This document shows positions 8,413 to 57,828 of a stretch of DNA of 64,000 nucleotides, in pieces. This DNA is from Rhodothermales bacterium (GTDB lineage Bacteria > Bacteroidota > Rhodothermia > Rhodothermales > UBA10348), in contig JANQQV010000007.1 in assembly GCA_028284865.1 (NCBI GenBank), positions 62,001 to 126,000 on the forward strand, given 5' to 3'. The first letter of the stretch is position 1; each line of letters opens with the position of its first letter. A model generated the notes under the pieces. It was not told the DNA's origin. It saw only the letters and a list, made by a program, of their open reading frames with translations, and made no database searches. The position numbers and the translations under genes were made by a program.

Positions 8413-8418
8413 TCCAGG

Positions 8419-8634
8419 TCAGGCAACAGGATTGGCCGAAACGACGGGATAGCCCTCCTCTTCCAGAGCAGCTCGCAGCTTCGGCTCGACGATTCCCCAA
8501 TCCGGCACGTCGATGACGGCTCGGCCGATCTCCACGTCGTGCTTCTCGATTCCTTCCACTTCTGCGATGGTTTCGTCAACAGTCATTTTGCAATGATTGC
8601 AGCTCATTCCGTCGAGCTCGAGTTCGATTTTCAT
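8419..8634 (-). CDS. copZ: Heavy-metal-associated (HMA) copper chaperone, CopZ-like
   Basis: A 71-residue cytosolic metallochaperone with a single HMA fold. The metal site is GMSCNHC (cysteines in MxCxxC) at residues 9-15, followed by the usual VEGI and EEEGYPV elements. Cu(I) is the expected ligand because the next gene upstream on the same strand is a Cu(I) P-type ATPase, 87 bases away. The two probably form an operon in which this protein delivers copper to the pump. It is convergent with the FprA gene, with only six bases between the stops. Confidence 0.88.
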   Translation of the reverse strand: MKIELELDGMSCNHCKMTVDETIAEVEGIEKHDVEIGRAVIDVPDWGIVEPKLRAALEEEGYPVVSANPVA

Positions 8635-8721
8635 GTCCTTGATCAGGATTTGATGGTGTGAGATCGCAACAGGAATCTCCTTCCGGGAGGTTCTGGGAGC
8701 TACGGCTCATTCCGTGTGGCA

Positions 8722-11142
8722 TCAACGGCCCTTCAAGCGAAGGCTATTCGACACTACCGAGACGCTGCTCAATGCCATGGCTGCTGATGCGATAACCGGT
8801 GAAAGCAGTAGACCAAACGCGGGATACAACGCCCCCGCCGCAATAGGGATGCAGATCACGTTGTAGATGAATGCAAAAAACAGATTCTGCTTGATGACGG
8901 TCATGGTATCACTGGACAAGCGGATGGCTTCCGGAATCAGGCCCAGATCATGCTTCATCAGGGTGACATCGCTGGCCTCACGTGCCACATCGGAACCCGA
9001 ATGAACGGCTATTCCCAGATCAGCCGTTGCCAGAGCCGGCGCATCGTTGATCCCGTCGCCTACCATGGCCACACGAGCATCGGCTGCTTTCAATCGCTCC
9101 AGGTGCTCCACTTTTTGCACCGGCAATAAATGTGCATGCCACGTTGAAATGCCTGCAGCAGTGGCAATGTGGCGCGCAGCTGCTTCGCGATCGCCAGTCA
9201 GCAGGACGACATCCCGGTTCATTTCGGCAAGGCTTGCGATAACCGCCGGCACCTCCTCTCGCAGTGTATCGACGGCTTCCATCCATCCGAGGTAACTCGA
9301 ATCCTCCGCCACATGAATGACTGATCCCACGACGTCATCCGGTACTGCTACCACCTCAACCCCGCGATCTTCCAGATAGCCGGCATTTCCGGCATGAATG
9401 GTCTTTTTGCGGACAACGCCGGTCAATCCTTTCCCAGGCACTACCTCGACGTCAGACGGATCCCGCAGCATCAGTTCCCGTCGTTCCGCCTCAGAGACGA
9501 TAGCTCGGCCTATCGGATGCTCAGAGACCTGCTCCAGCGAGGCTACGAGCGACAGCAGCGTCTCTTCATCGCTGTTATCGGACGGCTCAATACGGGGAAT
9601 AGACAACGACCCATGTGTAAGCGTGCCCGTTTTGTCGACAGCAACTGTTTGAATACTGGCCAGCTTCTGAAGAGCGGCGGCGTCGCGAATCAGGATACCG
9701 CGCTTCGCGGCGCGACCGGTGCCCACAACGATTGCCGTAGGAGTGGCCAATCCCAATGCACACGGACAGGCGATGATCAGCACTGAGACAAATCGAAGCA
9801 GCGCGTTATCCAGCGCGGGATCAGGGCCGATAAACCACCATACGAGGGCCGTACCAACAGCAATGACCATCACGATGGGTACAAAGATCGAGGCGATGCG
9901 ATCGGCCAGTTGCTGCACAGGCGCTTTTGTGGCCTGAGCGCGGGACACCAGATGGGTAATCTGACTCAACATGGTGTCTGGACCTGTCCTGGTAACCTCG
10001 ACTTCCAGCACCCCAGAAGTGTTGGTCGTTCCAGCAACAACACCGTCCCCCCTGGATTTTGTCACAGGTACGGACTCGCCCGTCACCATGGCTTCGTCGA
10101 CGGGACTTGAACCTTCCACGACACGTCCATCAACCGGGATACGCTCTCCCGGAAGGATCCGAACGCGATCTCCCAGGACCACTTCCTCCGCAGGAATGAT
10201 GACGGCCTCCCCCATCCGCAGAATTCTCACTTCATCGGGCTGTAGCGCTTTCAGGCGCTCGATAGCCTCACCCGTTCGTCCTTTCGCCCGCTCCTCCATG
10301 AATCTCCCGACCAGGATGAACGTGACGATCAGCGCCGCTGCTTCGAAATACACCGGAGGCATGCCGCCCTCAGACAGCCGCTCCGGAATGAACAGGGCAA
10401 CGGTTGAATAAAGAAATGCCGAGCCTACTCCCAAAGCGACCAGGGAATTCATATCCGTGCCACCGTGGCGCAACGCCGTCCAAGCCGCCGAAAAGAAAGG
10501 AGTCCCTGCGTACAGCACCACCGGGGTTGCCAGCGCCAGTTGGAGCCAGTGCTCGTAGGGAATACCAAAAGCGCCGTGACTCATGGCAATGACCGCGAGC
10601 GGAAGGCTGAACGCAACGCTGACAATCAGGCGCGTCCTCATTTTCCGTTCTCGCAGACGGGCCTCCTCGGCCTGAGAAGGCCCTGTCTGAAGCGTTTCAG
10701 GCCGGTGCACATCAATGAGCCGACTCAACGAACGCCCGGAAATCATGGCCGGAATGTATCGGATCGTGACATCCTGCCCGTCGGAGCGTGCCCTCGCGTC
10801 AGCATCCGTGACACCATTGGTAGACAAGAGGTCTTCAATCAAGCCCGCAGCACGCTCATGCGATTCCTCTCCCTCAAATCGGACCTCGGCCAAAGACGTG
10901 GCGACGTCATATCCGGTTTTCCGAATCACATCAACCAATTCTCGCACAGAAGACTGATCAGAATCAACCCGGATGACGGCTTCGGCCGCGGCATAGTTCA
11001 CTCCAGCCTCGGACACACCCACTGTCTTTCCCAGCTTGCGCTCAATTCGCAAGGCACATGCCGCGCACGTCATTCCCTCAACGGGAATGTGGACAACATC
11101 TGCCTCCTGGATGGCATCCATTTCGGGTGAGTCGTCGTTCAT
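8722..11142 (-). CDS. copA: Cu(I)-exporting P-type ATPase
   Basis: An inner-membrane P1B-type ATPase of about 806 residues from ATG 11142. The open frame reaches 11274, but the first HMA motif (GMTCAAC, residues 23-29 from 11142) begins shortly after this start. The shorter start also leaves a 169-base divergent promoter region toward the LacI gene. A second HMA-like repeat follows but has no CxxC pair, so it probably does not bind metal. Later motifs are the membrane CPC in IACPCALGLATPTAIVVGTG, the phosphorylation site DKTGTLTHG, the hinge GDGINDAPALA and the NLFFAFIYN helix typical of Cu(I) pumps. It probably forms an operon with the copZ-like gene. Confidence 0.93.
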   Translation of the reverse strand: MNDDSPEMDAIQEADVVHIPVEGMTCAACALRIERKLGKTVGVSEAGVNYAAAEAVIRVDSDQSSVRELVDVIRKTGYDVATSLAEVRFEGEESHERAAGLIEDLLSTNGVTDADARARSDGQDVTIRYIPAMISGRSLSRLIDVHRPETLQTGPSQAEEARLRERKMRTRLIVSVAFSLPLAVIAMSHGAFGIPYEHWLQLALATPVVLYAGTPFFSAAWTALRHGGTDMNSLVALGVGSAFLYSTVALFIPERLSEGGMPPVYFEAAALIVTFILVGRFMEERAKGRTGEAIERLKALQPDEVRILRMGEAVIIPAEEVVLGDRVRILPGERIPVDGRVVEGSSPVDEAMVTGESVPVTKSRGDGVVAGTTNTSGVLEVEVTRTGPDTMLSQITHLVSRAQATKAPVQQLADRIASIFVPIVMVIAVGTALVWWFIGPDPALDNALLRFVSVLIIACPCALGLATPTAIVVGTGRAAKRGILIRDAAALQKLASIQTVAVDKTGTLTHGSLSIPRIEPSDNSDEETLLSLVASLEQVSEHPIGRAIVSEAERRELMLRDPSDVEVVPGKGLTGVVRKKTIHAGNAGYLEDRGVEVVAVPDDVVGSVIHVAEDSSYLGWMEAVDTLREEVPAVIASLAEMNRDVVLLTGDREAAARHIATAAGISTWHAHLLPVQKVEHLERLKAADARVAMVGDGINDAPALATADLGIAVHSGSDVAREASDVTLMKHDLGLIPEAIRLSSDTMTVIKQNLFFAFIYNVICIPIAAGALYPAFGLLLSPVIASAAMALSSVSVVSNSLRLKGR

Positions 11143-14478: not shown

Positions 14479-15711
14479 TTATCGGATTCGGATGGCTTGA
14501 ATGGGTTCCAGACGTCCCGCGACCTTGGCGGGAATCCAGGATGAAATGGCGCACAGCACCAGCGTAATCACGGCGACCAGGACGAAATCAATCAGTCCGA
14601 GGTCGATCGGTGCGGTGTCCATGTAGTAGGCTTCAGCAGGCAATGGAATGATTCCAAACTGCTTCTGCGCCCACGCAAAAATAAGTGCCGATGCCTGACC
14701 GATCATTACACCGGCACCGCCGATCAGCAAACCAAGTCGCACGAAAATGCGACGACGCGTTTTCGAAGTGGCTCCCATCCCCGCCAGAATGCCCATTTCG
14801 CGTCGCTTCTCGAGGATGATCATCAGCAACGTGCCGATAATGTTGACCGCGGCCACAAATATGATGATGGAGATGATCAAAGGGATGATGCTCTCTTGCA
14901 GTGCAACCCATGCAAACAGGCTCCGATAGATTTCCGTCACGGGTCGGGCGATGGCAGGAAATTCCAGGACTTCATCGAGTCGATCAGCGGCATCCACAAA
15001 CTGAACACCCTCATTGACCCGCAAATCGAATCGGGTGACCTGATCCGGACCGTATTCCAGCAGGTCTCGGGTCTCCTCTATCGGAGCGAATACATACAGA
15101 TCATCGAAGTCAGCGAGTGAAGACTCATAGATCCCCGATACCGTGAATTGACTGAATCTCGGATTCTGAGCCTGTCCAGCATTTCCCTGGACCGAGATGG
15201 CCGTCAGCCGATCGCCGACGCCTACCCCAAGGACACGCGCTAACGAAGCCCCAATGACCAGTCCAGGGCGATCACCTGCTGGCCTGAGATCCCCACTCCC
15301 CGCAACGAGCGCTGACGTGATGTAGTCGGGAATCTCAGGCGTTCCCCAGATCGAAACACCATCGATGTCCCGCGATGAGCGTCGAAGCAGAATGAATTCC
15401 TGAACGACCGGCGAGACTTCGCTGAGGATCTGTTGACGTTCGAGTAGTTGCTGAAGCGCTGCCACGTCGTCAAGCGGCTCGTCGCGAATGCTCTGGACCT
15501 GAACGTGAGCGGCAAATCCGGTGATCTTGTTCTCGATTTCGCCACTGAAGCCGCGCACGATGGACAACGCCAGAATGAGCGATGCGACACCAACGGCGAC
15601 CCCTGCGATCGATATCCACGTGATCATCCGCAGAAAACGGCGCCCTTCTGCCATGCCTTGGGCACCGCGCAAATAGCGTCTGGCAATGAACGATTCGAAG
15701 TGGAAGGCCAT
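14479..15711 (-). CDS. LolC/LolE-family ABC transporter permease
   Basis: About 410 residues from ATG 15711, where MAFHFESFIARRYLRG gives the typical family start. The longer open frame adds 28 arginine- and cysteine-rich residues that look non-coding. An N-terminal membrane helix (MITWISIAGVAVGVASLILALSIVRGF) is followed by a large periplasmic domain (MacB-PCD type) and three C-terminal membrane helices with the REMGILAGMGATSKT coupling region. The family extracts lipoproteins from the inner membrane or drives mechanotransmission with an ATPase partner. No LolD-type ATPase is adjacent, so it must be elsewhere. It leads the operon with peroxiredoxin, moaD and moaE. Confidence 0.88.
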   Translation of the reverse strand: MAFHFESFIARRYLRGAQGMAEGRRFLRMITWISIAGVAVGVASLILALSIVRGFSGEIENKITGFAAHVQVQSIRDEPLDDVAALQQLLERQQILSEVSPVVQEFILLRRSSRDIDGVSIWGTPEIPDYITSALVAGSGDLRPAGDRPGLVIGASLARVLGVGVGDRLTAISVQGNAGQAQNPRFSQFTVSGIYESSLADFDDLYVFAPIEETRDLLEYGPDQVTRFDLRVNEGVQFVDAADRLDEVLEFPAIARPVTEIYRSLFAWVALQESIIPLIISIIIFVAAVNIIGTLLMIILEKRREMGILAGMGATSKTRRRIFVRLGLLIGGAGVMIGQASALIFAWAQKQFGIIPLPAEAYYMDTAPIDLGLIDFVLVAVITLVLCAISSWIPAKVAGRLEPIQAIRIR

Positions 15712-44141: not shown

Positions 44142-44196
44142 GTCGGGACGGCGGGATTTGAACCCACGACCCCTTGCACCCCATGCAAGTGCGCTA
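44142..44196 (-). pseudogene. attL: truncated tRNA-Pro(GGG), 3' portion only
   Basis: The 55 bases 44142-44196 are identical to 57754-57808. They cover the tRNA from the D-arm TAGCGC through the anticodon stem-loop, T-arm and acceptor 3' strand. The 5' acceptor strand and most of the D-arm are absent (the sequence departs at 44197), so this copy cannot fold as a tRNA. It is the displaced 3' end of the original gene and marks the left attachment site. Confidence 0.9.
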
Positions 44197-44481: not shown

Positions 44482-45552
44482 CTAGCGAAGAAGATCGAAA
44501 TCTGCTGATTCAAATTTTTGACCGCGAATTTTGATTTCGATTCCTGTGTGGATTTTGACCAGTCCTTCTAGGTAGCGAGTCTCCATCCTCTTTCCCACCC
44601 ATCCATCGTATATCATTGAAATCATTCGATCGCCCACTGCTTCATTGAGAATCTGCATTATCCATGCTTCATATCCATACATCTCAAACATGAGATCATT
44701 CTTTGGTGCTCCTGACTCTCTAGACTTTCCTAGCACATTCTGAATTCGCTTTCCTCCTTCCCTGAGTCGTTTGACAATGGTTCTTCGTCCCTCCACAACC
44801 TCTCGGTACAAACCTCTGAGAAGTGTATCTCGATGCATTTCCTCCAGCTTTGATACTCCCCACTTTGACGCCATGGAGTTCCATCCGTTTGGACTATCCT
44901 TAGATCCGTAGATCCAAGAAATCAGATAAGTCTTTAGTGCTGAAGATTTGATTCCATACTTATCTGACAAGGATGCTCTCACCTCTTCCTTGTTCTCATT
45001 GTAGTGACTAATGCATGGAGTTTTGAGTCCTTCACGTTGACACAGATACTCAAGTATCGTGTAGTGAGCGTTCGAAAGATCGTAGTCCCACAGATCTTGA
45101 TCGGCGAACAACACATTTCTTACCGCTGAGGACGTATTCACCGTATGGGGAAAATTCAGTCCTTGGGGGACAGTTAGTCTCCCTTCGCTTCCTTCTCGAT
45201 ATAGTTGAAGAACGTGCCCCGGACACAGTGGACGCTCAGAAGCCTCACGCCAAGCTTCTAGACTATTCAAGTTGTACTTGAACCGTGCTGTTCTCAATCG
45301 TATCGAAGGACCATTAGATCGCATATACGCAATCGCTTCTTCCACACATTTAATGTTTGGCTTGATTGCACCGGGAAGAACTACCGATGAAGCCGTAGGG
45401 TTACCGTCCTTATCTAACCCCAGAATCGCATTGGATGGAAGCTCATTGACTACCACTCGCGCCTTGGATCCATCCCTGTACGAGTACTGTACTGGGGAGT
45501 AAATTCTCTTTTGTTGAAAGGCGTCGATCTCCGTGTCAAGCCACTCTTTCAA
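44482..45552 (-). CDS. Compact DNA/RNA polymerase of the family A (Pol I/T7-like) palm superfamily
   Basis: 356 residues from a TTG start. Three motifs occur in the order and internal spacing of family A polymerases. Motif A, WDYDLSNAHYTILEYL, has candidate catalytic D158 and is preceded by GRLTVPQGLNFPHTVNTSS and an RNVLFA strand, parallel to the Pol I region before its DYS motif. Motif B is K207-x7-Y215-G216 (KTYLISWIYG), the same spacing as in Pol I and T7 RNA polymerase. Motif C is ISMIYDGW with D316, where the usual HD is YD. A YGYEAWIMQIL helix lies between B and C. There is no exonuclease domain. It probably replicates or transcribes the element; whether it makes DNA or RNA cannot be told. 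Confidence 0.65.
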   Translation of the reverse strand: MKEWLDTEIDAFQQKRIYSPVQYSYRDGSKARVVVNELPSNAILGLDKDGNPTASSVVLPGAIKPNIKCVEEAIAYMRSNGPSIRLRTARFKYNLNSLEAWREASERPLCPGHVLQLYREGSEGRLTVPQGLNFPHTVNTSSAVRNVLFADQDLWDYDLSNAHYTILEYLCQREGLKTPCISHYNENKEEVRASLSDKYGIKSSALKTYLISWIYGSKDSPNGWNSMASKWGVSKLEEMHRDTLLRGLYREVVEGRRTIVKRLREGGKRIQNVLGKSRESGAPKNDLMFEMYGYEAWIMQILNEAVGDRMISMIYDGWVGKRMETRYLEGLVKIHTGIEIKIRGQKFESADFDLLR

Positions 45553-45854
45553 CTGATATTTCTTTGTGTAAGATTTCCTCCGGAAAACCTGAATGACTCA
45601 TCTACACATTTCAGATATGGATCGATGACCTCAAGGTAATAGCCGTTCCGACGAGTCTTGGCAAACTCTCCTTGCAGATATTTTGCAGGAAGGGCATAGG
45701 AACCAAAATACTCAGTTGGGAAGAACTCACGATGTACGAAGTTGCCTTGGATACACCCTGCGATAAGATGGGCTAAACGTTCCTGATGCAGAGGTGTCAG
45801 CGCACAAAAGTGCTTGTGCCCTGAGAGAAGTTTTTGAATCGCAAAGTCGTTCAT
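45549..45854 (-). CDS. Small ORF immediately upstream of the polymerase-like gene
   Basis: 101 residues, no family recognised. Its TGA stop overlaps the TTG start of the polymerase-like frame. The polymerase frame stays open about 45 bases further upstream without an ATG or GTG, reading RRKSYTKKYQLKEW. That continues naturally from VDESF of this ORF if the frame slips by -1 near 45585. So this may be the N-terminal part of one polymerase gene split by a frameshift mutation, by programmed slippage or by a sequence error. A truly separate, coupled small protein is the alternative. Three phased repeats lie just before its start. Confidence 0.55.
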   Translation of the reverse strand: MNDFAIQKLLSGHKHFCALTPLHQERLAHLIAGCIQGNFVHREFFPTEYFGSYALPAKYLQGEFAKTRRNGYYLEVIDPYLKCVDESFRFSGGNLTQRNIS

Positions 45855-46427: not shown

Positions 46428-49361
46428 CTATTTTCGACTAAACCCTTTGTCATTCAGATACTGCTCATATAGCATCCCGAAAAGCGTCTTCTTCAATTCA
46501 GGATTGCTCATGAGCTTGTTGTAGAGTCCAACCCGTTCGTTCACGAAGGACAGTAATTCCTTCTCCCCTTCCTCGGTAAACTTCTTGCGCTTATTCGTCG
46601 GGGAATTATCTCCCATGTGAACAGCGTCCAGCTCTTCTTTTGATTGCATCCGAGATGCAAACTCTCTCAACGCCACCTTGTCTTCCTCACTGAATTCCGT
46701 GGCGTATACCTCGTTAATACGACTCAAAATGGAAGAGAGGTAGTCCTCCTCTTCTTCAGAGACAGCACCATCCCCAATTGCCACTGGAGGGAGCACTTTC
46801 GGCTCATGTACTGCAATAGCCCCTTCGAACTGTTTCTGCAACCTGAAGTAGTCCAAATCAACCGAGTCTAGTAGCTCATGAATATCCACTCGGTCTGGAC
46901 GGGGAAGCTTTTTAACTACCGATCTCAAGAACATGTACAGCTTCTCCCAGTCAGTCTCGTAGAAGTCTGCAATCTGGGATACGTATCCGTAAAGCCGACA
47001 GAACGATGATGCCTTCGAACGAAATTCCTCACGCACTTCTTCGTCTTCGATCCTGCTCCATCGCTCCACGACACTATCCAGAATTGGAATGAATTCGGCA
47101 TCGCTTCGTTTTGGATCTAGAAAGATCTCGCAGAACGTGTCTCGCTCTTCATCGCTATACAGGTGAAACTCCTCTATCTCGCTATGGAGCTGATACAACC
47201 TGTTTGGATCTGTCGTACCCTCAAGGGTTGTTTCACCATAGTAGGGAGCAAACGCTTCTTCGATGTCCTCCGCGCTATTCACAAAGTCGAGCACAAACGT
47301 GTTTGTCTTGCCCTTCGTGGTCCTATTAAGTCTGGAAAGGGTCTGTACTGCTTGAAGACCTCGGAGCGTCTTATCGACGAACATGGTGTGCAGGAGAGGC
47401 TCATCGAACCCGGTCTGGTACTTGTTTGCAACGATTAGGAGCTTGTATTCCGGTCGCTTCAACGCATCAGGAATGATCTTTGCGATCTCTGGGTTCATAG
47501 ACCTCTCTGTATAGTCTACCCCCCTCTCCGTAATCGTCCCCGTGAAGGCCACCAACGCATAATACGGAGTTCCCCTTTCCTTCAGCTGACGATCCACTTC
47601 CAGCTTGTACTTGACGCACATCTGGCGAGACGAAGTCACAATCATGGCTTTCGCCTTTCCACCGATCTCGTTCTTGGTCTTCGAATCGAAGTGATCAAGA
47701 ATGATGGTGACTTTCTCCTTCACGTTGTGCTCGTGCAGGTCTACCCAACCAATCAGCTTTTTGAGCGAGGTTTTCTCAGGAAATCTCGGATCATCCAGAA
47801 TGCGTTTTGAAAGCTCAAAGTGACGCTGGTAAGTGGTATAGTTCTGAAGCACATCCAGCGTGAACTCTTCCCCTATCGACTGCTTCATCGAATAGGTGTG
47901 AAATGAGCGTGGGATACTATCCGCTCCTTGAGTTCCGAATATTTCAATGGTCTTGTTCTTCGGCGTACCAGTGAAACCAAAGAAACTGACGTGCTCCAAC
48001 TTTGAGCGATATTTCATCTCCTTGAGAATACGCTCATCTAAATCACCTCCGGTGACATCGTCCTCATCATCAATAGAGAGTGCTTTGTTGAGATGCTTCT
48101 TCTGCTCACCACTCTGGGAGGAGTGAACCTCATCAACAATTACGGCAAATCGCCTCGTGCCTAGACTCTTGATTGTGTCAGATATGAACGGAAACTTCTG
48201 AATCGTAGTGATGACAATGGATTTTCCCTGCTCCAAGAACTCCTTGAGTTGCTGAGATCCCATTTGGACTCCATTTACAACTCCCTTGGTGCGTTCAAGC
48301 TGACGTATCGTGTTCTGAAGCTGGCTGTCCAGTACTCTCCTATCAGTTACCACGATTACCGTATCGAACAATCGATCTGTATCAGATGGCTTCTGATAGA
48401 ACGAGGTGAGCATGTGAGCGAGCCATCCGATGGAGTATGACTTCCCAGAGCCTGTCGTATGCTGAACGAGGTAGTTCTTACCTGCCCCATCGCCCCTTAA
48501 AGCCGTTCTAAGGCTTCGTATCACATCTAGCTGGTGGTAGCGAGGAAAAATGAGTACTTCACTCTCCTTCTCTTCTACGAGTTTTGTGGTCTCGTTGTAG
48601 ACCTTCTCCTTCTCACGCGAGACATGGACAAAGTTCTCTAGAATGTCTAGTAGTGATGTAGGGGTGAGAATGTCTTGCCACAAATACGCGGTCTTGACAC
48701 CGTTTGGATTGATGGGATTCTTGATGCCTTTGTTGAAAGGCAAAAAGCGTGTCCCGTATCCGCTGAGCCGAGTAGCCATGTAGACCAGATCTTGGTCTAC
48801 CGCAAAGTGAACGACGCACCGCTTGAACTGGAGTAGAGGCTCCCCTGCGGGCTTGCGATCTTCCTTGTACTGCTTCTTCGCATCCTTGACCGTCTGCCCC
48901 GTGAGCTGGTTTTTTAGCTCAATCGTGACCACCGGAAGCCCATTCGCAAAGAGAACCACGTCAATGGAGTTCTCATTCTTGGTCGAGTAGTGAAGCTGGC
49001 GAACCACAGACAACCTGTTCGCTTCGAAAAGCTTCTGATGATCAGGATTCAGTCCGCTCTTCGGCTCGAAGTAGCACAGTTTGAAGTGGATTCCACGATG
49101 CTTGATTGCTCCTCGAAGGACGCTGATCAGTCCTTTCTTTCTGATCTCTTCAGAGACAATCTTGCAGAAGCGTGATTCGGTCTCGTCTCCATAGGATTGA
49201 CTAAGCTTTTCCCACTCATCAGGCTGAGTATCTTTGACGAAACCCGATAGTTCTGATGTAATCAGGCACAGGTCACGATCATACACAGAGTAATCGCATA
49301 TCCTGTAGCCTGAGCTGACTAGACCTTCTTCAATGATATCCTCAAGGTCTCTTTCCTTCAT
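46428..49361 (-). CDS. hsdR: Type I restriction enzyme, endonuclease/translocase subunit
   Basis: 977 residues. The N-terminal nuclease has D134 (SIDVVLFANG) and E148-x-K150 (VVTIELKN), the PD-(D/E)XK core. The SF2 motor follows with Walker A TTGSGKS (about 302-308), DEVH at 411-414, a GFTGTPKNKT motif and helicase motif VI-like QTLSRLNRTTKGK. A helical C-terminal region binds the methylase. With HsdM and HsdS it should cut unmodified foreign DNA after ATP-driven translocation. It starts four bases after hsdS stops, and all catalytic residues are present, so it is probably active. Confidence 0.94.
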   Translation of the reverse strand: MKERDLEDIIEEGLVSSGYRICDYSVYDRDLCLITSELSGFVKDTQPDEWEKLSQSYGDETESRFCKIVSEEIRKKGLISVLRGAIKHRGIHFKLCYFEPKSGLNPDHQKLFEANRLSVVRQLHYSTKNENSIDVVLFANGLPVVTIELKNQLTGQTVKDAKKQYKEDRKPAGEPLLQFKRCVVHFAVDQDLVYMATRLSGYGTRFLPFNKGIKNPINPNGVKTAYLWQDILTPTSLLDILENFVHVSREKEKVYNETTKLVEEKESEVLIFPRYHQLDVIRSLRTALRGDGAGKNYLVQHTTGSGKSYSIGWLAHMLTSFYQKPSDTDRLFDTVIVVTDRRVLDSQLQNTIRQLERTKGVVNGVQMGSQQLKEFLEQGKSIVITTIQKFPFISDTIKSLGTRRFAVIVDEVHSSQSGEQKKHLNKALSIDDEDDVTGGDLDERILKEMKYRSKLEHVSFFGFTGTPKNKTIEIFGTQGADSIPRSFHTYSMKQSIGEEFTLDVLQNYTTYQRHFELSKRILDDPRFPEKTSLKKLIGWVDLHEHNVKEKVTIILDHFDSKTKNEIGGKAKAMIVTSSRQMCVKYKLEVDRQLKERGTPYYALVAFTGTITERGVDYTERSMNPEIAKIIPDALKRPEYKLLIVANKYQTGFDEPLLHTMFVDKTLRGLQAVQTLSRLNRTTKGKTNTFVLDFVNSAEDIEEAFAPYYGETTLEGTTDPNRLYQLHSEIEEFHLYSDEERDTFCEIFLDPKRSDAEFIPILDSVVERWSRIEDEEVREEFRSKASSFCRLYGYVSQIADFYETDWEKLYMFLRSVVKKLPRPDRVDIHELLDSVDLDYFRLQKQFEGAIAVHEPKVLPPVAIGDGAVSEEEEDYLSSILSRINEVYATEFSEEDKVALREFASRMQSKEELDAVHMGDNSPTNKRKKFTEEGEKELLSFVNERVGLYNKLMSNPELKKTLFGMLYEQYLNDKGFSRK

Positions 49362-49365
49362 GGCG

Positions 49366-50691
49366 TCAATTCACTTCTGAAGGTGACCAGTCCCGAACGT
49401 CGATCTTGCCCGTTACCGCTTCGGAAATGAGAGATCTTCGATATTCCTGTAGCAACAGAATGGATTTACCGCTCTTATCTATTTCACAGTCTAAATACTG
49501 AGTTTCACTATCGAGATACTCCTCAATCTCGTCTTGCTCATTTGAGGGAGGAACAATTACTTCGAGCCTTCCCAGTTTTTCTTTGGTGAAATGAGGGATA
49601 CTTGTCGTATCAACCAATCCTAAATAGATGTTCTTTGAATAAAACGAAGACAACAGGTACTCGAAGTAACTTGAGTTATCTGTGGTTAGTCTGACACGAT
49701 TTAAAGATTTCTGATACATCATTCCTTCCCGTTCATTCTGCCACCGCGCGGTTCTTCCAACGTCTCCACCTTCTGTGACCAATAGATCCCCGTCCTTTAG
49801 GAGATAGTTACAAATCTCGCTGGGCGTAAAGAACGTCTTCTTTAGGTCGTCCAGTTCTATAAATCGATCTTGAACATTCAAATTACGAAGATATGGCAAC
49901 TCAACGGCCTCAGGCTTTGGACTGCGTTTTGAGTCTAGCATCTTACCCAACTCAATCGCAGAAATGTGTTTCAGTTTGGTCTTCGTCCAATGCCTTGGGA
50001 TATCCCCAATCCACTCAACTTCTGAGTCTTTCATTTCAGCATCGGGGTAGAGTCCCTTCGTCACCACGTGTGAAATCAAACTCGCCTTCTGCTCCTCCAG
50101 CAATTCAATCTTGCGTTTTTTCTTTTCAATCAGAGAGTCGATGAGGGCAGTTTTGCGGTCGAGGAATAACGCAATTTTGTTTTGTTCATCCTCTGTCGGA
50201 AGCAAAAGTGGCAAATCAAGGAATGAATCATCGTACATCCTCAATCGAGAGTCCACAATTCCTTTGGATCTCTTTCTGAACTCGGTAACGCAACGATCAT
50301 CTCGAAGTAGGTAGTGATAAAATTTCGGAACGACGAAAGACGCGAACCGAAATACAGAATAAGCTGGTGACACTACCCCATCGAACGGACTTACGCCTAG
50401 TGCGCGCTTCCAAGTCAGCATGATGTTGCTAACTAAATCGTCCTTGCTAACCTTAGCATATCCAATCAGCGACTCTGATCGAGACAAATGCTCTCCATCG
50501 TCGACATTCTTTATTGATGACCTCTGAACCACGCCGCTGTGTTCGGTGACGGAGAGTAGATTTTCATGCCCAGTAGTACTTTTTTCCTTGCGTACCGAAA
50601 GAAGATATTTTGCTCTCCTTGTCAGCCAGTGTTTCGGGATCGTATCAATCCACTCAACACCTGAATCCTTGTATTCCGAATACCTTTTCAT
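49366..50691 (-). CDS. hsdS: Type I restriction-modification specificity subunit
   Basis: 441 residues with two target-recognition domains in tandem. Each half begins with a similar phrase (KDSGVEWIDTIPKHW near residue 7 and KDSEVEWIGDIPRHW near residue 222) and ends in a coiled spacer (KKRKIELLEEQKASLISHVVTKG and the C-terminal LLLQEYRRSLISEAVTGKIDV). This is a complete two-TRD subunit, so a bipartite recognition site is expected. The start overlaps the stop of the upstream nuclease gene by four bases; hsdR follows after four bases. There is no second or silent hsdS in the window. Confidence 0.94.
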   Translation of the reverse strand: MKRYSEYKDSGVEWIDTIPKHWLTRRAKYLLSVRKEKSTTGHENLLSVTEHSGVVQRSSIKNVDDGEHLSRSESLIGYAKVSKDDLVSNIMLTWKRALGVSPFDGVVSPAYSVFRFASFVVPKFYHYLLRDDRCVTEFRKRSKGIVDSRLRMYDDSFLDLPLLLPTEDEQNKIALFLDRKTALIDSLIEKKKRKIELLEEQKASLISHVVTKGLYPDAEMKDSEVEWIGDIPRHWTKTKLKHISAIELGKMLDSKRSPKPEAVELPYLRNLNVQDRFIELDDLKKTFFTPSEICNYLLKDGDLLVTEGGDVGRTARWQNEREGMMYQKSLNRVRLTTDNSSYFEYLLSSFYSKNIYLGLVDTTSIPHFTKEKLGRLEVIVPPSNEQDEIEEYLDSETQYLDCEIDKSGKSILLLQEYRRSLISEAVTGKIDVRDWSPSEVN

Positions 50692-51614
50692 CCCTCTTGC
50701 CTCTCATACGACTGCTTGACAAGGGACATGGCGTATTCAACCTGATCGGGTTTCTGGATGTAAAAGCGGTAATCTCCATTTCCCCAGTGTCCTTTCTCGC
50801 TTATGTCTTCGCACAAGCCCAAAGGATCGTCTAGCTCACCTTTCTTAAGGTTGAACATCAACGGAATGCCTTTGTCGTACATGATCGCGTCGACGAAAGG
50901 ACCGTACCTGCGAAAGCTGATGTACTGCTTGTTGTACTTGATCTCGATATCGTCACTCAAGGCTAGAATACGCTCTTTAATCTGGTGCCAAAGATCGATG
51001 ATATGCTGAGGACGATTCTTTGACTTATTTAGGTGATACGCCTCATCCACTTTGACCACTTCCGAGGATACGCTACGCACCACATCGCTTTTGCCAGAGG
51101 ACACGGAATTGATATCCACATCAGACTGCGTTTCAATCTGATTAAAGCTTACCGATCCATTTTCGAACCGTGTGATTTCCCAAAGCTCGAATGGCACGTT
51201 TCTAAAGCCAATAGAATGCCTCTGGTAAGCCGTGAACTTGGGAGAGACGAAGATGACGCGAGACTGCGACCAATCAACTTCCTCACGTTTGAGCGTTCGC
51301 TCCATCCGTTCATTGAACTCCAGAATGAAGTCTGCCTTGTTGTTGAGTAGAATGGAGAGATAGGTGTAGCCCTGATCGATTACCGAGTAGTTGGTGCCCT
51401 TCTTGTACTCAATGATGACAAACGCATTTGATTCAGCATCATAGCAGAGAGAGTCAAAGCGAAACGATTGGATGGGAAATTCTGACCGTACCAGATCTAG
51501 CCCAAATAGCTCATCGACATTTCCTTCAACGAGGTCCTGAATTTCCTTCTCAAGCGCAAATGCCTTTGAGCGGACGTGCGTTAGAGTACCCCCTCTTTGA
51601 TCAAACAGCTTCAT
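50688..51614 (-). CDS. PD-(D/E)XK nuclease-like protein with DUF5655-like C-terminus in the hsd operon
   Basis: 308 residues from ATG 51614, chosen because the 45 upstream codons run back over hsdM. The N-terminal 100 residues have FRFDSLCYDAESNAFVIIEYKKG: D54, E69-x-K71 match a PD-(D/E)XK active site of the type seen in NucS-related and DUF91 nucleases. The C-terminal 110 residues (IKERILALSDDIEIKYNKQYISFRR, later DDPLGLCEDISEKGHWGNGDYRF) resemble DUF5655. It sits between hsdM and hsdS with a one-base gap and a four-base overlap, so it is made with the restriction enzyme. Such accessory genes occur in type I loci, but their role is not settled. Confidence 0.75.
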   Translation of the reverse strand: MKLFDQRGGTLTHVRSKAFALEKEIQDLVEGNVDELFGLDLVRSEFPIQSFRFDSLCYDAESNAFVIIEYKKGTNYSVIDQGYTYLSILLNNKADFILEFNERMERTLKREEVDWSQSRVIFVSPKFTAYQRHSIGFRNVPFELWEITRFENGSVSFNQIETQSDVDINSVSSGKSDVVRSVSSEVVKVDEAYHLNKSKNRPQHIIDLWHQIKERILALSDDIEIKYNKQYISFRRYGPFVDAIMYDKGIPLMFNLKKGELDDPLGLCEDISEKGHWGNGDYRFYIQKPDQVEYAMSLVKQSYERQEG

Positions 51615-51615
51615 A

Positions 51616-53328
51616 TCAGTCCTCCAAAATCTGTCTGAGTAAGTCCTTGGACTCTTCTTCGAGAGCAAGTAAATCAGCGGTGATCTCAGAAAGAGGACGG
51701 GGAGGTGTGTACTTGTAGAAGTACTTCGAGAAGTTGATCTCGTAGCCAACCGAATCGAAGGATCTATCTACCCAGTATTCTTCTAGGTGTGGGTTCACCT
51801 CCCTTTGGATGTACTCTTCAATAGACTCCGAAAGGGGTATGCGTTCGTAATCTCGCTTCTTTGTATCCGCCTTGGGACTACCGTCGCGCTTGCGAACGAC
51901 TTTTCCATCTTCGACAAGAGGCTGTTCCACTCGAACCTTAGTGTAGCCGAAGAACTCGTTTCCGTAGATCTTGGAGAACTCACTCTCCTCAAATGAGGCA
52001 TACAGATCCAGTAGTTCTCGTCTGTTCTGTTTAGAAAGCTCCTTTCGCTTATCGCCAAGCGACTTCTTCATCTGCTGATAGAACGATGAGCCATCTATTA
52101 GATGAACCTTACCCTTTCGTTGAGATGACTTTCGGTTGGTAACAATCCACAAATACGTGGTGATACCCGTATTGAAGAACATCTGATCAGGAAGGCGAAG
52201 GATGCACTCTAGCCAATCGTTTTCGATGATCCATCGACGAATCTCGGACTCACCACTCCCTGCATCTCCAGTAAAGAGTGGCGACCCGTTCATAACGATC
52301 CCGATACGCGACCCACGATCCCGATCCATCTTCGAGATCATGTGCTGAAGGAAAAGAAGCTGTCCATCAGAGGAGCGAGGCGTACCTGCCGAGAAACGTC
52401 CATTCGGATTCTTGGCCTCCTCCTCGATCTCCACCTTCTCAGATTTCCAACTGACTCCATAGGGAGGATTGGTAATCATGTAGTCGAACCGATCCCCAGC
52501 AAACTTGTCTTCAGTGAGCGAAGATTCGCCTCGAATATTCTCAGGGTCACCATCCGAGATCATCATATCGGATTTGCAGATAGCGTATGTCTGGGGGTTT
52601 AGCTCCTGTCCGGAGAGTCGTAGCTCTACGCTTTCATTGACGAAATCATGAATCCACTCCTGCGAAATGGTGAGCATTCCACCAGTCCCGCAACACGGAT
52701 CAAATATGGAGCGAACAAGCCCCTCCCCTTTGAGCCTGTCTGTGTCAGGCGTGAAGATCATCCCGACTAGGAGGCGCACAACATCACGCGGCGTATAGTG
52801 CTCCCCACTCGTCTCATTAGACATCTCTGAGAACTTGCGAAGCAGTTCTTCAAACACCTGACCCATGGTGTGATTGCTCACCACATCTGGATGTAGGTCT
52901 ATCTCGGTGAACTTCTCGACGAACAGAAAGAGTCGCTTGTTCTTGTGAAGCTTATCGATGTGCTTGCCGATCCCAAAGTTCTCAATGATCTCGCGCACAT
53001 TCTTTGAGTATCCGTCGAGATACCCGTTCAGATTCATCCGAATGTTGTGAGGGTCCTGCGTTAGCCTTTTGAGGTCGTACTTCGAACGGTTGTAGAAACT
53101 CGCTCCCACCTTGTTCAGGATGATTGGTGCTGGATCATCCACTTTAGACTTCCACTCTTCGTACAGCGCATAGACCTGCTCCTTTTGAGGCTCTAGGACG
53201 CAGTCTAGTCGCCTCAGAACGACGAACGGGAGGATTACATCTCCATACTCATGTTGCTTGAACAAGCCCCTTAGAACGTCATCACAGACGTTCCAGATGA
53301 AAGTGGAGATCTTAGAGAAGTCGGACAT
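51616..53328 (-). CDS. hsdM: Type I restriction-modification DNA methyltransferase subunit
   Basis: 570 residues. An N-terminal helical HsdM_N domain (SDFSKISTFIWNVCDDVLRGLF) precedes an N6-adenine methyltransferase. The AdoMet site is DPCCGTGG at 210-217 and the catalytic NPPY is at 287-290. It methylates adenine within the site chosen by HsdS and so protects host DNA. It is the first gene of the hsd operon, 121 bases downstream of the unknown 145-residue gene. Confidence 0.95.
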   Translation of the reverse strand: MSDFSKISTFIWNVCDDVLRGLFKQHEYGDVILPFVVLRRLDCVLEPQKEQVYALYEEWKSKVDDPAPIILNKVGASFYNRSKYDLKRLTQDPHNIRMNLNGYLDGYSKNVREIIENFGIGKHIDKLHKNKRLFLFVEKFTEIDLHPDVVSNHTMGQVFEELLRKFSEMSNETSGEHYTPRDVVRLLVGMIFTPDTDRLKGEGLVRSIFDPCCGTGGMLTISQEWIHDFVNESVELRLSGQELNPQTYAICKSDMMISDGDPENIRGESSLTEDKFAGDRFDYMITNPPYGVSWKSEKVEIEEEAKNPNGRFSAGTPRSSDGQLLFLQHMISKMDRDRGSRIGIVMNGSPLFTGDAGSGESEIRRWIIENDWLECILRLPDQMFFNTGITTYLWIVTNRKSSQRKGKVHLIDGSSFYQQMKKSLGDKRKELSKQNRRELLDLYASFEESEFSKIYGNEFFGYTKVRVEQPLVEDGKVVRKRDGSPKADTKKRDYERIPLSESIEEYIQREVNPHLEEYWVDRSFDSVGYEINFSKYFYKYTPPRPLSEITADLLALEEESKDLLRQILED

Positions 53329-53902: not shown

Positions 53903-54496
53903 CTAGAGCATTTCAATGAGGTTCTTTTTCGCCTCGGAAGAGACTTCTACGTAGTGCTGAGTTGTGGCGAGGTGCTTGTGACCCAGGATTGATTGAAGGT
54001 CTTTGAGAGATCCTCCAGCCCGAGACAGATTTCTCGCCGAACGAGTGGCAAGTGTTCTTCTTCCAGAATGACTCGATGCTCCCTCCAACCCCAACCTCTC
54101 GTAGGTACGCTTGAACCACAGGACTATTGAATGCGGAGACATAGGTGCCCCACGCATTGATATGATCACATTCTCGTCCCTATTCCTCCAGACACACGAA
54201 TCGCTCTGGCGCAGGTCAGTCAATGCCTTACGCAATTCCGGATGAGTTGGGATCACCCGCCCAGAGCCTTTCTTAGCTATTGCATCTCGGACCTCTAAGT
54301 GATCTTGAACCTCTCCAGAGGGGCCCAACACCATTGACCAACAAAGCTTGGCAATCTCCGAAGCCCTGAGACCAGCCCTAAAGCTCAACAGGAATATTAC
54401 AACGTTCCTTTCCGGATATCGGGTCTCCTCAGTCAGATAACGAAGTACAGCTCGCGCCTGATGATCAGTGAGAATCTTTGCTTGTTTTCCAGCCAT
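53903..54496 (-). CDS. Short tyrosine recombinase (catalytic domain only)
   Basis: 197 residues from ATG 54496; the longer frame to 54619 runs through the AT-rich control region. The catalytic set is complete: R44 (RAGLRASEIAKL), K76 or K77, H143-x-x-R146 (HSGRRTLAT), H173 (LGHKHLATTQHY) and the nucleophile Y182. The N-terminal core-binding domain of full integrases is missing, as in FimB/FimE-type and other small recombinases that invert or resolve DNA. The next genes are the unknown 145-residue protein and the hsd operon, so a site-specific switch acting on this region is possible. No inverted target pair was found by eye. Confidence 0.88.
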   Translation of the reverse strand: MAGKQAKILTDHQARAVLRYLTEETRYPERNVVIFLLSFRAGLRASEIAKLCWSMVLGPSGEVQDHLEVRDAIAKKGSGRVIPTHPELRKALTDLRQSDSCVWRNRDENVIISMRGAPMSPHSIVLWFKRTYERLGLEGASSHSGRRTLATRSARNLSRAGGSLKDLQSILGHKHLATTQHYVEVSSEAKKNLIEML

Positions 54497-54646
54497 TTTG
54501 CACAGTTTATAAAACGATTTACACATTTTATATGCATATATAGCTACAAGGTTGCGTGGTAATCCCACTTTATTGTTGTGCACCATCGTCTTACACTGGA
54601 ATCGATACAGTTTGCACAAAAAATATCCATTTCAACTTTCAGTCCC
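54497..54646. promoter_or_regulatory. AT-rich divergent control region between recombinase and receiver genes
   Basis: 150 bases, very A/T-rich, containing the 12-bp palindrome TATATGCATATA at 54529-54540 and two TTTGCACA copies (54497 and 54611) in the same orientation. It must hold the promoters of both divergent genes and could hold a recombinase site. Confidence 0.4.
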
Positions 54647-55312
54647 ATGCAGGAGCAGACCATCTTGGATTTCTTCGCCGAGAACAAAGAGTGGATTTTT
54701 AACGGTGTCGGGGCACTGTTCTTGATGGGCTTATTTGGTTGGCTAGGAAGGAAGCTCCTTTCAGGCTCCTCTGCATCACCAGCGGGGACTACCAATACGA
54801 CCGTGACCAACAACATCAACGTTGGGTCCGGCCACAATTCGGCTCCAAACGACGTGCAAAAGTCGGAGTCATCAGAGGAGACGCAAGAGGACACACTTGG
54901 CGGGGAGCTAGACTTGGTCACCCGGAAAGCTCTAACGAGAATTGTCTTCGTTGATGACGATGTGAAGTTCAAAATCGTTCAGATCCTAAAAAAGTCCGGA
55001 TGGATCAATACCTCCATAATCAAGGATGTTGCCAATATTGATGAGGACCCCATTGTGTCTGCTCATATCGTTTTCGTCGATATTCGCGGCGTTGGTAAAG
55101 CCATGGATTTCAAGGATGAAGGCTTGGGCTTGGCTCTAGCACTGAAGAAGAAATACTCAGAGAAGTACGTAGTGATCTATTCTACTCAGAGCCAAGGAAA
55201 CCGCTTTCACGAAGCATTACGACAGGTAGATACTTTCGTCTCCAAGAATGCAGAGCCTTACGAATTTCAGGAGATCATTGAACAGGCAAGCGAGAGAATC
55301 AGTCTAGCATGA
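54647..55312 (+). CDS. Membrane-anchored receiver-domain protein
   Basis: 221 residues from ATG 54647. One membrane helix lies near the N-terminus (WIFNGVGALFLMGLFGWLG, residues 16-34), followed by a Thr/Asn/Ser-rich linker and a receiver domain at about 97-221. The receiver has all key residues: acidic cluster D103-D105 (VFVDDD), phosphoacceptor D145 (VFVDIRG), S179/T180 (VIYST) and K200 (FVSKN). There is no DNA-binding or enzyme domain, so the membrane part must be the output or simply the anchor. The stop overlaps the start of the kinase gene by four bases, and that gene encodes its probable phospho-donor. Confidence 0.8.
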   Translation: MQEQTILDFFAENKEWIFNGVGALFLMGLFGWLGRKLLSGSSASPAGTTNTTVTNNINVGSGHNSAPNDVQKSESSEETQEDTLGGELDLVTRKALTRIVFVDDDVKFKIVQILKKSGWINTSIIKDVANIDEDPIVSAHIVFVDIRGVGKAMDFKDEGLGLALALKKKYSEKYVVIYSTQSQGNRFHEALRQVDTFVSKNAEPYEFQEIIEQASERISLA

Positions 55313-56349
55313 ATATCAGACTAACCAGCAGTGCCGGAGACTCTTTAATAGATGACTTCCCTTCCGAATGTGATCCTTGTATCAACTCCAACTCTGAATG
55401 CTCGGTGCTAGTAACGTGTCCATTGCACGAGGATAAAAGACGGATTGGCATCCTACACGGTGATGAAGGGTCTGTCTTTTGTTGCTCAAACAAGAAGGAT
55501 TACATCAAGAGCAACAAGACCTTCAAACGAGAGCAACAAGCGTACATAGACGGAATCAGACTCGTGGATGATGCCATCGAGAGACTGACGCTTGAAGTCC
55601 GCTCCACTATCCACAACCTCACAAAAACGAATGCACACAACATTCAGGAGTTGTATGCCATCGTTCCTCAAGATTTGCTGACGCAAGACATTAAATCACA
55701 GCTCGCGTCAATCAAGGGCATCATTGCCGAAAACCCTCATGAAGCTGCAAAAGCCTTCCTTAGAATCGCCAAGAACAATGCATCAATGAAGGTTGAGTTT
55801 TCTGCTCTCAGCAAGCTTGAAGAAAAGGAGCCGACACTGCTGTTTAGAAAGCATTCTCTGAAAAGAGTCACCCTAAACTTGCTCCACATCTTCTACCAAG
55901 ACTTCAATGAGCGAGAGATAGAAATCAACATAGCTGACTCGGATCTTTCCGCTTACATCGACTTCGAGATCGTCCATCTGGCACTTTATAACCTATTTCA
56001 CAATGCTACGAAGTATGCATTGAGAGAAAGCACGATTGACATTTCATTTAAACGTGAGCACAACGACTACTTCTTGTCTTTTGGAATGCTCTCTCTACGC
56101 ATTGAGAAAGACGAACTTCCTAGACTATGTGAGCTGAAGTTCTCCGGTGATATTGCCAAACGTCTAGGACTAGCTGGAGATGGAATCGGACTAGCACGGA
56201 CAGCTCGGATTCTCAAACTCAATAATGCTGAACTATTAATTGAAACCAATACAGGAGAGAAAGAATCTGTCGCAATCAAGGGAATACCGTACGACTACAA
56301 CAGGTTCACCATTGTCTTCAGAGACAACACCAAGAAGATCGTAAAGTGA
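55309..56349 (+). CDS. Soluble histidine kinase-like protein with N-terminal Cys cluster
   Basis: 346 residues with no membrane helix. The N-terminal 60 residues have C21, C24, C31, C37, H40, C58 and C59, a likely zinc or iron-sulfur site. A long helix with H102 (STIHNLTKTN) is a candidate dimerisation/phosphoacceptor region. The ATPase domain has an N-box N228-LFHN232-ATKY and a G-box G290-D-G-I-G-L. It should phosphorylate the adjacent receiver protein. The C-terminal end of the ATPase fold is normal. It is translationally coupled to the receiver gene and convergent with the integrase gene. Confidence 0.75.
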   Translation: MNIRLTSSAGDSLIDDFPSECDPCINSNSECSVLVTCPLHEDKRRIGILHGDEGSVFCCSNKKDYIKSNKTFKREQQAYIDGIRLVDDAIERLTLEVRSTIHNLTKTNAHNIQELYAIVPQDLLTQDIKSQLASIKGIIAENPHEAAKAFLRIAKNNASMKVEFSALSKLEEKEPTLLFRKHSLKRVTLNLLHIFYQDFNEREIEINIADSDLSAYIDFEIVHLALYNLFHNATKYALRESTIDISFKREHNDYFLSFGMLSLRIEKDELPRLCELKFSGDIAKRLGLAGDGIGLARTARILKLNNAELLIETNTGEKESVAIKGIPYDYNRFTIVFRDNTKKIVK

Positions 56350-56515: not shown

Positions 56516-57616
56516 TCAGATGCTGGTGTCCTTTACGATAGAATTATCGACGATCTGCTTAGCGTAGTCATTTGGTCTTAAGTGCAGATATCTACTTGTA
56601 GTCTCCAGACTCCGGTGTCCAGCGAACATCCGAACTGCCTCAAGAGAAGCACCTCTTTTAAGAGCATCAGTTATACCTCCGTGCCTCAATCCATGAAAAG
56701 TGATGGATTCAGGTAAGCCAGTTAATCTGACGAGCCTCTTGAATTGCTTACTGGTGTGCTTCGGATTGAGTGCGTTCCCCATGTTATTCAGAAACACTCT
56801 ACCGGTAGAATCCGAACGTCTCACCTGCGGCTCCAGAAGACTCCTCAATCGTCTAGAAATTGGTTTGGTGACCGGCCTGCCAGACTTAGGTGCGAAGCCC
56901 TCCTCGGCTTGAATCGTAACCCACTCGAAGTCATTGCTTAACCATCTGATTCTCATCTCACATACCTCTGTCAGTCTAAGGGCTAGGTCAAAGGCGGTAA
57001 CAATGACAAGAGACATGTAAGGCACCGAAGATGATTCAGCAGTTCTGACCAACAGATCTAAGTCTGAAGGAGTGATACATTTCTCCCCAATCCGGTCAGG
57101 TGGTCTCGGAATCGAAACGTTGGTGCAAGGATTTGACGTAACCAGACCTTTGTCTCTGAAATAGTTGAAAGCAATCTTCACACGAGTGAAGTAGGTAAAG
57201 CGAGTCGATGGATTGGCAGTAGCAATGGCGAGCCAGTCAGATATCGTAGTCTCATCAACACCAGCAATCTTACGATCATCACCGACCTCTTCAACAAACA
57301 GAGTCAACACCCATCGATAGTGGTCTCTGGTTGCCCTCCTACACCCCTGACGTGACTTGAGAAACAGCTCAACCGCTTCTCCGAGTGTTGGCTCTTCCAT
57401 AATCCTAGGCTCTTCTAGACCCCAATACGGTGCCCTCAATGCCTGTCTCCACGGATCGATTATTCCTTGAGCGTATCGACTTTCCAACAGGGACTGCAAG
57501 TGTCTCGCTTCCCTCTTCCCTTCGACTCTCAGAGCGACTCTCTTACGGACTGGAGTTCTTCCTGAGTCAAAAAACTGGAGACTGTAGTAGCGACCATTCT
57601 TGTGTAGGGTAGCCAT
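56516..57616 (-). CDS. int: Tyrosine integrase of the island
   Basis: 366 residues from ATG 57616; 25 further upstream codons cross the 16-bp repeat and are rejected. An N-terminal arm-binding region, a core-binding SAM-like domain (about 75-160, with TLGEAVELFLKSRQGC) and a catalytic domain are present. Catalytic residues are R214 (ALRLTEVCEMR), K244, H308-x-x-R311 (HGLRHGGIT), H334 (AGHRSLETT) and Y343 (SRYLH). It should integrate and excise the island at the tRNA-Pro site, whose 3' end lies about 140 bases from the gene start. No small excisionase gene was found near it. Confidence 0.92.
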   Translation of the reverse strand: MATLHKNGRYYSLQFFDSGRTPVRKRVALRVEGKREARHLQSLLESRYAQGIIDPWRQALRAPYWGLEEPRIMEEPTLGEAVELFLKSRQGCRRATRDHYRWVLTLFVEEVGDDRKIAGVDETTISDWLAIATANPSTRFTYFTRVKIAFNYFRDKGLVTSNPCTNVSIPRPPDRIGEKCITPSDLDLLVRTAESSSVPYMSLVIVTAFDLALRLTEVCEMRIRWLSNDFEWVTIQAEEGFAPKSGRPVTKPISRRLRSLLEPQVRRSDSTGRVFLNNMGNALNPKHTSKQFKRLVRLTGLPESITFHGLRHGGITDALKRGASLEAVRMFAGHRSLETTSRYLHLRPNDYAKQIVDNSIVKDTSI

Positions 57617-57647
57617 GTGATATCTGTTCTGAAGTCTCAGCTTTAGA

Positions 57648-57663
57648 ACAAATGTAGAACAGT
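57648..57663 (+). repeat. 16-bp repeat near the integrase (possible arm site)
   Basis: Identical to 44262-44277 at the other end. Within 60 bases the core TGTAGAACA recurs inverted as TGTTCTACA at 57710-57718, which adds to the picture of integrase or excisionase binding sites. Confidence 0.5.
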
Positions 57664-57695
57664 AGTTCTGCCCCAGATCCCTACCGGACACAAAA

Positions 57696-57753: not shown

Positions 57754-57808
57754 GTCGGGACGGCGGGATTTGAACCCACGACCCCTTGCACCCCATGCAA
57801 GTGCGCTA
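57754..57808 (-). repeat. attR: 55-bp direct repeat inside tRNA-Pro
   Basis: Identical to 44142-44196. This copy completes the functional tRNA, so the 3' half of the present gene is supplied by the island. Confidence 0.92.
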
Positions 57809-57828
57809 CCGGGCTGCGCCACGTCCCG
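57755..57828 (-). tRNA. tRNA-Pro (anticodon GGG)
   Basis: 74 bases. Acceptor CGGGACG pairs with CGTCCCG; the D-arm stem is GCGC/GCGC; the anticodon stem CTTGC/GCAAG encloses loop ATGGGGT with anticodon GGG; the T-arm is GTGGG-TTCAAAT-CCCGC; the discriminator is A. CCA is not encoded. The 3' 54 bases belong to the island attachment repeat. Confidence 0.95.

Follow-up and report, generated by a model that had tools for sequence, protein, structure and literature searches.

A compact, divergent TV-Pol-type family A polymerase encoded on a tRNA-Pro defence island of a Rhodothermales bacterium

TV-Pol was defined by Iyer, Abhiman and Aravind in 2008 as a family of minimal, nuclease-free superfamily A polymerases found in transposons and viruses (PMC2579912). 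Its traits include an RRM-like palm bearing two catalytic Asp, a beta-hairpin whose invariant Arg precedes the palm, a thumb of two antiparallel helices, and a helix-turn-helix in the fingers that carries RxxxK and a conserved Asp. The elements that carry them encode integrase, resolvase or transposase genes and occupy integration hot spots rich in restriction-modification (RM) genes, and a prim-pol function was predicted (PMC2579912). In some of these elements the N-terminal domain is encoded as a separate neighbouring gene (PMC2579912). Linkage to a D5 helicase characterizes a different subset and is not defining; the integrase/resolvase subset does not require it (PMC2579912). One member in that study came from Microcystis phage Ma-LMM01 (PMC2579912). 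The sole biochemically tested TV-Pol that we found in the literature is the staphylococcal CcPol of SCCmec, which with its partner MP makes primers and extends them with dNTPs, and can prime with dNTPs only (PMC7581432). Pairs of this PolA-SSB kind occur widely in Bacillota (PMC10061031).

In the present study, we analysed a polymerase gene and its surroundings in a 64,000-nucleotide stretch of DNA (the window) from a Rhodothermales bacterium. Both reading frames named in a first-pass annotation of this DNA proved to be real, and the 356-codon frame starts at a TTG. The features were as follows:

44482..45552, (-) strand: TV-Pol-like polymerase ORF (ORF2), 356 aa from the TTG and 371 codons from stop to stop.
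45549..45854, (-) strand: ORF1, 101 aa, in another frame and joined to ORF2 by a TTGA overlap; a probable N-terminal part, taken as a lead only.
45553..45597, (-) strand: a stretch of 15 sense codons (VIQVFRRKSYTKKYQ) that extends the polymerase frame ahead of the TTG and whose codon usage is coding-like.

The ORF2 sequence gave no useful match in Pfam, PHROGs, NCBIfam or the PDB; the Pfam DNA_pol_A domain (PF00476) of canonical DNA polymerase I did not match it, and the host encodes a separate PolA. We found 12 distant relatives with the same motif order, carried by similar islands and small plasmids as well as by phages. A whole-genome search of 60 related genomes gave one weak relative, a 538-aa protein from the same bacterial family as the host. 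Using tblastn against plasmids, we matched Polaromonas plasmids pH8NP1 (E 1e-21) and pW9NP1 and, with a second protein as the query, Calothrix and Synechocystis plasmids. Further searches matched a Desulfovibrio phage (E 2e-9) and phages of Microcystis and Erwinia, and a Gordonia phage protein annotated as DNA polymerase I matched weakly. Relatives were also present at five chromosomal loci in Burkholderiales and in four additional genomes of the host phylum, in which a more sensitive profile detected a member in only 6 of 394 genomes. Scans of viral contigs with back-translated patterns recovered no relative.

Several of the relatives were inspected individually. The Polaromonas genes (L004:37-1653 and L003:6095-7600) are annotated as "hypothetical" or "Clp protease N-terminal domain-containing protein"; we read the Clp_N label as a misannotation, since it lies under the Pfam cut-off and overlaps the polymerase core. 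On pW9NP1 the gene stops 10 bp ahead of repA. The 89,863-base contig L042 of genome G358 is plasmid-like, with ParA, an RPA replication initiator and a relative at 8062-10077. The relative on the Synechocystis B12 plasmid (L006:4668-6204) changes frame ahead of motif C. Desulfovibrio phage 7757 encodes a 767-aa relative with about 200 additional C-terminal residues in a record without annotation (L010:2200-4503), and compact unannotated family A-like polymerases occur in the Erwinia phage (L021:3104-4708) and Dickeya phages JA29, JA11 and JA13, all of them large. The Calothrix relative was considered as a CyRepA-type cyanobacterial Rep and rejected, as the domains differ; identity with a known plasmid Rep protein was also rejected, the Polaromonas authors giving replication to RepA_C. 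Acyl-carrier-protein matches of the family profile in the PDB were regarded as chance.

The family profile matched a protein of Microcystis phage MaMV-DL02 with probability 97 and E 1.3e-10, and the orthologue of this protein, 96.9% identical, is gp030 of Ma-LMM01. gp030 adjoins two transposases, in line with the description by Iyer et al. (PMC2579912). From this gene neighbourhood, rather than from an accession, gp030 is very probably the TV-Pol member that they took from Ma-LMM01. These results indicated that ORF2 is a real compact family A polymerase and a rather divergent new member of TV-Pol, not a new family. The first-pass annotation had considered the family impossible to name and possibly a new replicase or transcriptase; it falls instead in one named in 2008.

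ORF2 and its relatives share the order GR(L), motif A YD(x4)H/Q, motif B K(x7)YG, a QGxE helix and motif C HDG (YDG in ORF2), and the fuller pattern in the relatives reads GR(L/M)-Y...LQ...R..R, YD-x4-(H/Q), R, K-x2-L-x4-YG, N-x2-G, QGxE, HDG. The ORF2 residues are R125 in the GR hairpin, D158 in motif A, H163 at the ribose-gate position, K207-Y215-G216 in motif B, the YG-YE helix at 292-295 and Y315-D316 in motif C; D158, K207, Y215, G216, Y315 and D316 lie exactly where the first reading of the sequence had placed them. In a 10-sequence alignment, the positions equivalent to Y118, G124, R125, D158, G175, K207, G216, E295, D316 and G317 were invariant, and conservation was at least 90% at Y157 and Y215, in the QG of QGxE and at the His of HDG, showing that the motifs are not chance. 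We take them to correspond to E. coli Pol I R668 (GR), D705, K758, Y766-G767, Q849 and H881-D882. A profile built from eight relatives matched the host's own PolA (E 1.1e-4, with a probability of 56% against this single-sequence target), and the alignment placed GRL..NLQ, QG and HD in register. ORF2 departed from its relatives by Y315 for H in motif C, Y292 for Q in the QG helix and NTSS at the NLQ segment. Within the RxxxK fingers motif, K207 was invariant, three fingers helices were predicted and no invariant Asp was seen. The Arg of this motif was present in G358 (RGLVK), but ORF2, the majority of its relatives and even the Microcystis phage protein lack it, so that the residue appears to be a majority feature of TV-Pol and not a strict one.

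The window copy itself was evaluated with a codon-usage model trained on the other genes of the island. From about 45600 towards lower coordinates, codon usage supported the polymerase frame; upstream of 45600 the coding signal was broken, and the support for ORF1 was weak. The likely position of the break is the AGGTTTTCC run at about 45600, and a frame break near this run is the simplest reading. Programmed -1 frameshifting was also considered, and the AGG TTT TCC run differs from the canonical slippery heptamer. ORF1 sits in the right place for the N-terminal domain of the relatives, but its similarity to that region (3.2 bits, beaten by two of 1,000 shuffles and not significant) is too low to show it. 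The ORF1/ORF2 arrangement may instead reflect a read error or a split that is functional. Since ORF1 lies in another frame, the break falls near 45600 and some conserved residues are changed, the window copy may be decaying and is possibly damaged at its front end. At its furthest, this would make ORF2 the remnant of a once-working TV-Pol whose N-terminal part was removed by a frameshift near 45600 and whose core is drifting, which we regard as a serious contender with somewhat less than an even chance of being right. The coding-like codons extending 15 positions upstream of the TTG, the three altered motifs that are otherwise conserved, and the broken state of other copies (Synechocystis B12 and, likewise, L013) are consistent with such decay. 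However, both catalytic Asp residues, the GR Arg, K207, Y215 and G216 are intact in an open frame of 371 codons, and the separate N-terminal gene of some elements means that a split can be functional (PMC2579912). The frame break and the altered motif C, QG helix and NLQ segment make the activity of the window copy uncertain, with its catalytic residues kept.

The gene lies in a 13.6-kb element with the following features:

44142..44196, (+) strand: left att repeat, 55 bp, duplicating the 3' end of tRNA-Pro.
46428..49361, (-) strand: HsdR, type I restriction subunit.
49366..50691, (-) strand: HsdS, type I specificity subunit.
50688..51749, (-) strand: DUF5655 protein, candidate defence gene PDC-S18 (PADLOC).
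51616..53328, (-) strand: HsdM, type I methyltransferase.
53903..54619, (-) strand: second tyrosine recombinase (Phage_integrase), upstream of hsdM.
54578..55312, (+) strand: PDC-M43A, PADLOC candidate (E 8e-71).
55309..56349, (+) strand: PDC-M43B with a HATPase domain, PADLOC candidate (E 2e-105).
56516..57691, (-) strand: tyrosine integrase (Phage_integrase), adjoining the tRNA.
57754..57808, (+) strand: right att repeat, inside tRNA-Pro(GGG) at 57754-57828 (-).

The earlier description of a genomic island was borne out by the 55-bp direct repeats at tRNA-Pro, the integrase, a GC content of 0.469, below that of the flanks (0.556 and 0.565), and an empty site in G005, a genome of the same genus. 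There, a single tRNA-Pro carries one att copy, identical at 55/55 positions (L041:14281-14335), and the orthologues of the flanking genes are close together (adenosylhomocysteinase at L041:11280-12602 and a MerR-type gene at 14490-14897). Among the island proteins, the Pfam scan found no D5-type helicase, and no SSB-like partner, replication initiator or any other DNA replication gene was recognised. Next to the polymerase there was no candidate by sequence for an OB-fold SSB partner, and no helicase was found in its operon. Comparable elements carry some of the relatives. In Roseateles violae, the relative is accompanied by an integrase, AlpA, type I RM and an NYN-type gene, and an 18-bp repeat, with copies 14.2 kb apart, bounds the element; the complement of the repeat encodes FCIGK, which we take to be the usual C-terminus of MnmE, and an mnmE-like gene adjoins the integrase. 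The Pelomonas copy also adjoins type I RM genes.

Three further observations concern the cargo of the window island. The PDC-M43A and PDC-M43B genes overlap by a few bases and form a candidate two-component-like defence system. The DUF5655/PDC-S18 gene sits between hsdM and hsdS, and its listed 134-bp overlap with hsdM suggests that its start is probably further downstream. The recombinase at 53903-54619 is short and XerC-like; XerC-like genes near hsdM sometimes invert hsdS segments, and only one hsdS was seen in the island.

Compared with the described systems, ORF2 resembles the TV-Pol subset with an N-terminal domain in its minimal superfamily A core without a nuclease, its class of 400-600 aa and its integrase/resolvase elements in RM-rich spots. 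It differs by the YD in motif C, the missing Arg of RxxxK, the split at the frame break and the lack of a linked D5 helicase. The CcPol-MP and PolA-SSB primases are likewise small A-family polymerases in site-specific-recombinase islands with the same catalytic logic (PMC7581432, PMC10061031), whereas the ORF2 operon is without a recognisable OB-fold partner or helicase and ORF2 is far more divergent from Pol I. Because neither a helicase nor a recognisable SSB partner was found, the group fits TV-Pol and not the PolA-SSB subset as defined. Phage divPolA1 and divPolA2 also combine a palm lacking an active 3'-5' exonuclease with an unusual N-terminal region, but their description sets them apart from the ORF2 group as separate lineages (PMC11348598). 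Pipolins share the lifestyle of the island as integrative elements that encode a DNA polymerase of their own together with a site-specific recombinase (PMC7385651). The pipolin polymerase (piPolB) belongs to family B and the island polymerase to family A.

Gene content also bears on whether the enzyme replicates its element or is an accessory polymerase of mobile elements used for repair or gap filling. The plasmid partners of the gene are RepA_C in Polaromonas, RPA and ParA on the G358 contig, and a large serine recombinase in Calothrix. The gene thus adjoins a dedicated replication initiator on the Polaromonas plasmids and the G358 contig, and TV-Pol is not the sole replication protein on plasmids with their own RepA or RPA. 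The phages with relatives are large, and such phages usually encode other polymerases. Against an accessory role, the literature ties the family to replication through D5 helicases and CcPol-MP, and no further DNA replication gene was recognised in the window island; we consider this role unlikely.

Predicted structures were compared next to the sequence evidence. The AlphaFold model of a full-length relative, L011, had a pLDDT of 77 and a pTM of 0.75, and in the PDB its best matches were without exception DNA polymerases of family A (Foldseek E 5e-6, probability 1.00). With VIA-align it matched T7 DNA polymerase at Z 15.9 over 290 residues and Klenow at Z 15.8. Beta strands flank the GR motif in this model, and the GR Arg (R125) is invariant among the relatives. 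Two long helices (166-185 and 195-212) occupy the thumb region, which is of low confidence in the ORF2 model; a thumb could fit into the roughly 120 residues of ORF2 ahead of the GR motif, and the earlier claim that no thumb-sized N-terminal region exists does not stand. The absence of an exonuclease did agree with our results, as no Pfam nuclease domain was found in ORF2 or its relatives. The ORF2 model had an overall pLDDT of 59.7, although its core, at about 167-363 in the 371-residue frame, was confident, and it matched M. smegmatis Pol1 (Foldseek E 8.6e-7) and KlenTaq (Z 12.4, rmsd 3.1, 188 residues, over 158-365). The closest viral predicted structures were phage proteins without a name, about 400-550 aa long, and virophage or giant-virus replication proteins. 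Among the latter, the Zamilon virophage replication protein V6BPG7 was matched by a relative's model at Foldseek E 3.9e-6; it differs as a 778-aa protein, and the Sputnik-type virophage version is fused to a helicase (PMC2579912). Homology and structure prediction together show a family A palm with two catalytic Asp (D158/D316). Of the two outcomes that the first-pass annotation had named as refuting it, a structure lacking a right-hand palm and a confident hit on some unrelated family, neither was seen. Homologs, motifs, predicted structures and the att and empty-site evidence thus all back a compact family A-like polymerase on a genomic island.

These comparisons also addressed a possible single-subunit RNA polymerase of the island, acting as a transcriptase or RNA primase. 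T7 RNA polymerase has motifs A-C, the HDGF of the relatives resembles its HDSF, and similarly simplified phage divPolA2 proteins have been suggested as RNA polymerases (PMC11348598). However, Foldseek and profile-profile comparison led to family A DNA polymerases: all strong structural matches were to such enzymes, mitochondrial RNA polymerase reached only E 0.57 against the ORF2 model, and T7 RNA polymerase gave nothing comparable with the profile of eight relatives that matched PolA. The ribose-gate position, E710 in Pol I and G542 in T7 RNA polymerase, is H163 in ORF2; it is H or Q and not G in 11/12 relatives (most have H, three have Q and the Desulfovibrio phage has V). Judged by this residue, dNTP use would be favoured, and CcPol uses dNTPs (PMC7581432). 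An RNA polymerase is accordingly improbable, and the transcriptase option of the first-pass annotation is disfavoured. Chance resemblance of motifs in an unrelated protein, which the lack of a profile-library match might suggest, is excluded to a high degree by motif conservation across phyla and significant profile and fold matches, leaving it a negligible probability.

Collectively, it is probable that ORF2 encodes the catalytic portion of a template-dependent superfamily A DNA polymerase of the TV-Pol type, without a nuclease domain, and belongs to the tRNA-Pro defence island. On present sequence evidence, its most likely task is DNA synthesis for the excised element, perhaps together with primer synthesis. 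The tyrosine integrase would excise the island as a circle, a step suggested by the att repeats and the empty site that were observed. The polymerase would then copy the circle using dNTPs, and would probably lay its own DNA primers too, as CcPol-MP does in SCCmec. With its N-terminal segment cut off by the frame break near 45600, it may be expressed as a bare catalytic core only, or the gene may be in the course of being lost. A bolder and rather doubtful proposal is that a TV-Pol free of helicase and SSB serves as one-protein initiator, primase and polymerase of a tRNA-targeting defence island, with its N-terminal DNA-binding part supplied by a separate or frame-shifted ORF. The element would then be a family A counterpart of pipolins, which integrate at tRNA sites and carry RM cargo.

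TV-Pol has been known since 2008, and what is new is ORF2 as a divergent member on a defence island. In the present results, a very divergent, unannotated TV-Pol branch that escapes Pfam and NCBIfam is linked to integrative defence islands and to plasmids of small size, as well as to large phages. They widen the range in which self-replicating, pipolin-like defence islands may occur, and they supply small proteins for asking whether a minimal family A enzyme primes DNA alone.
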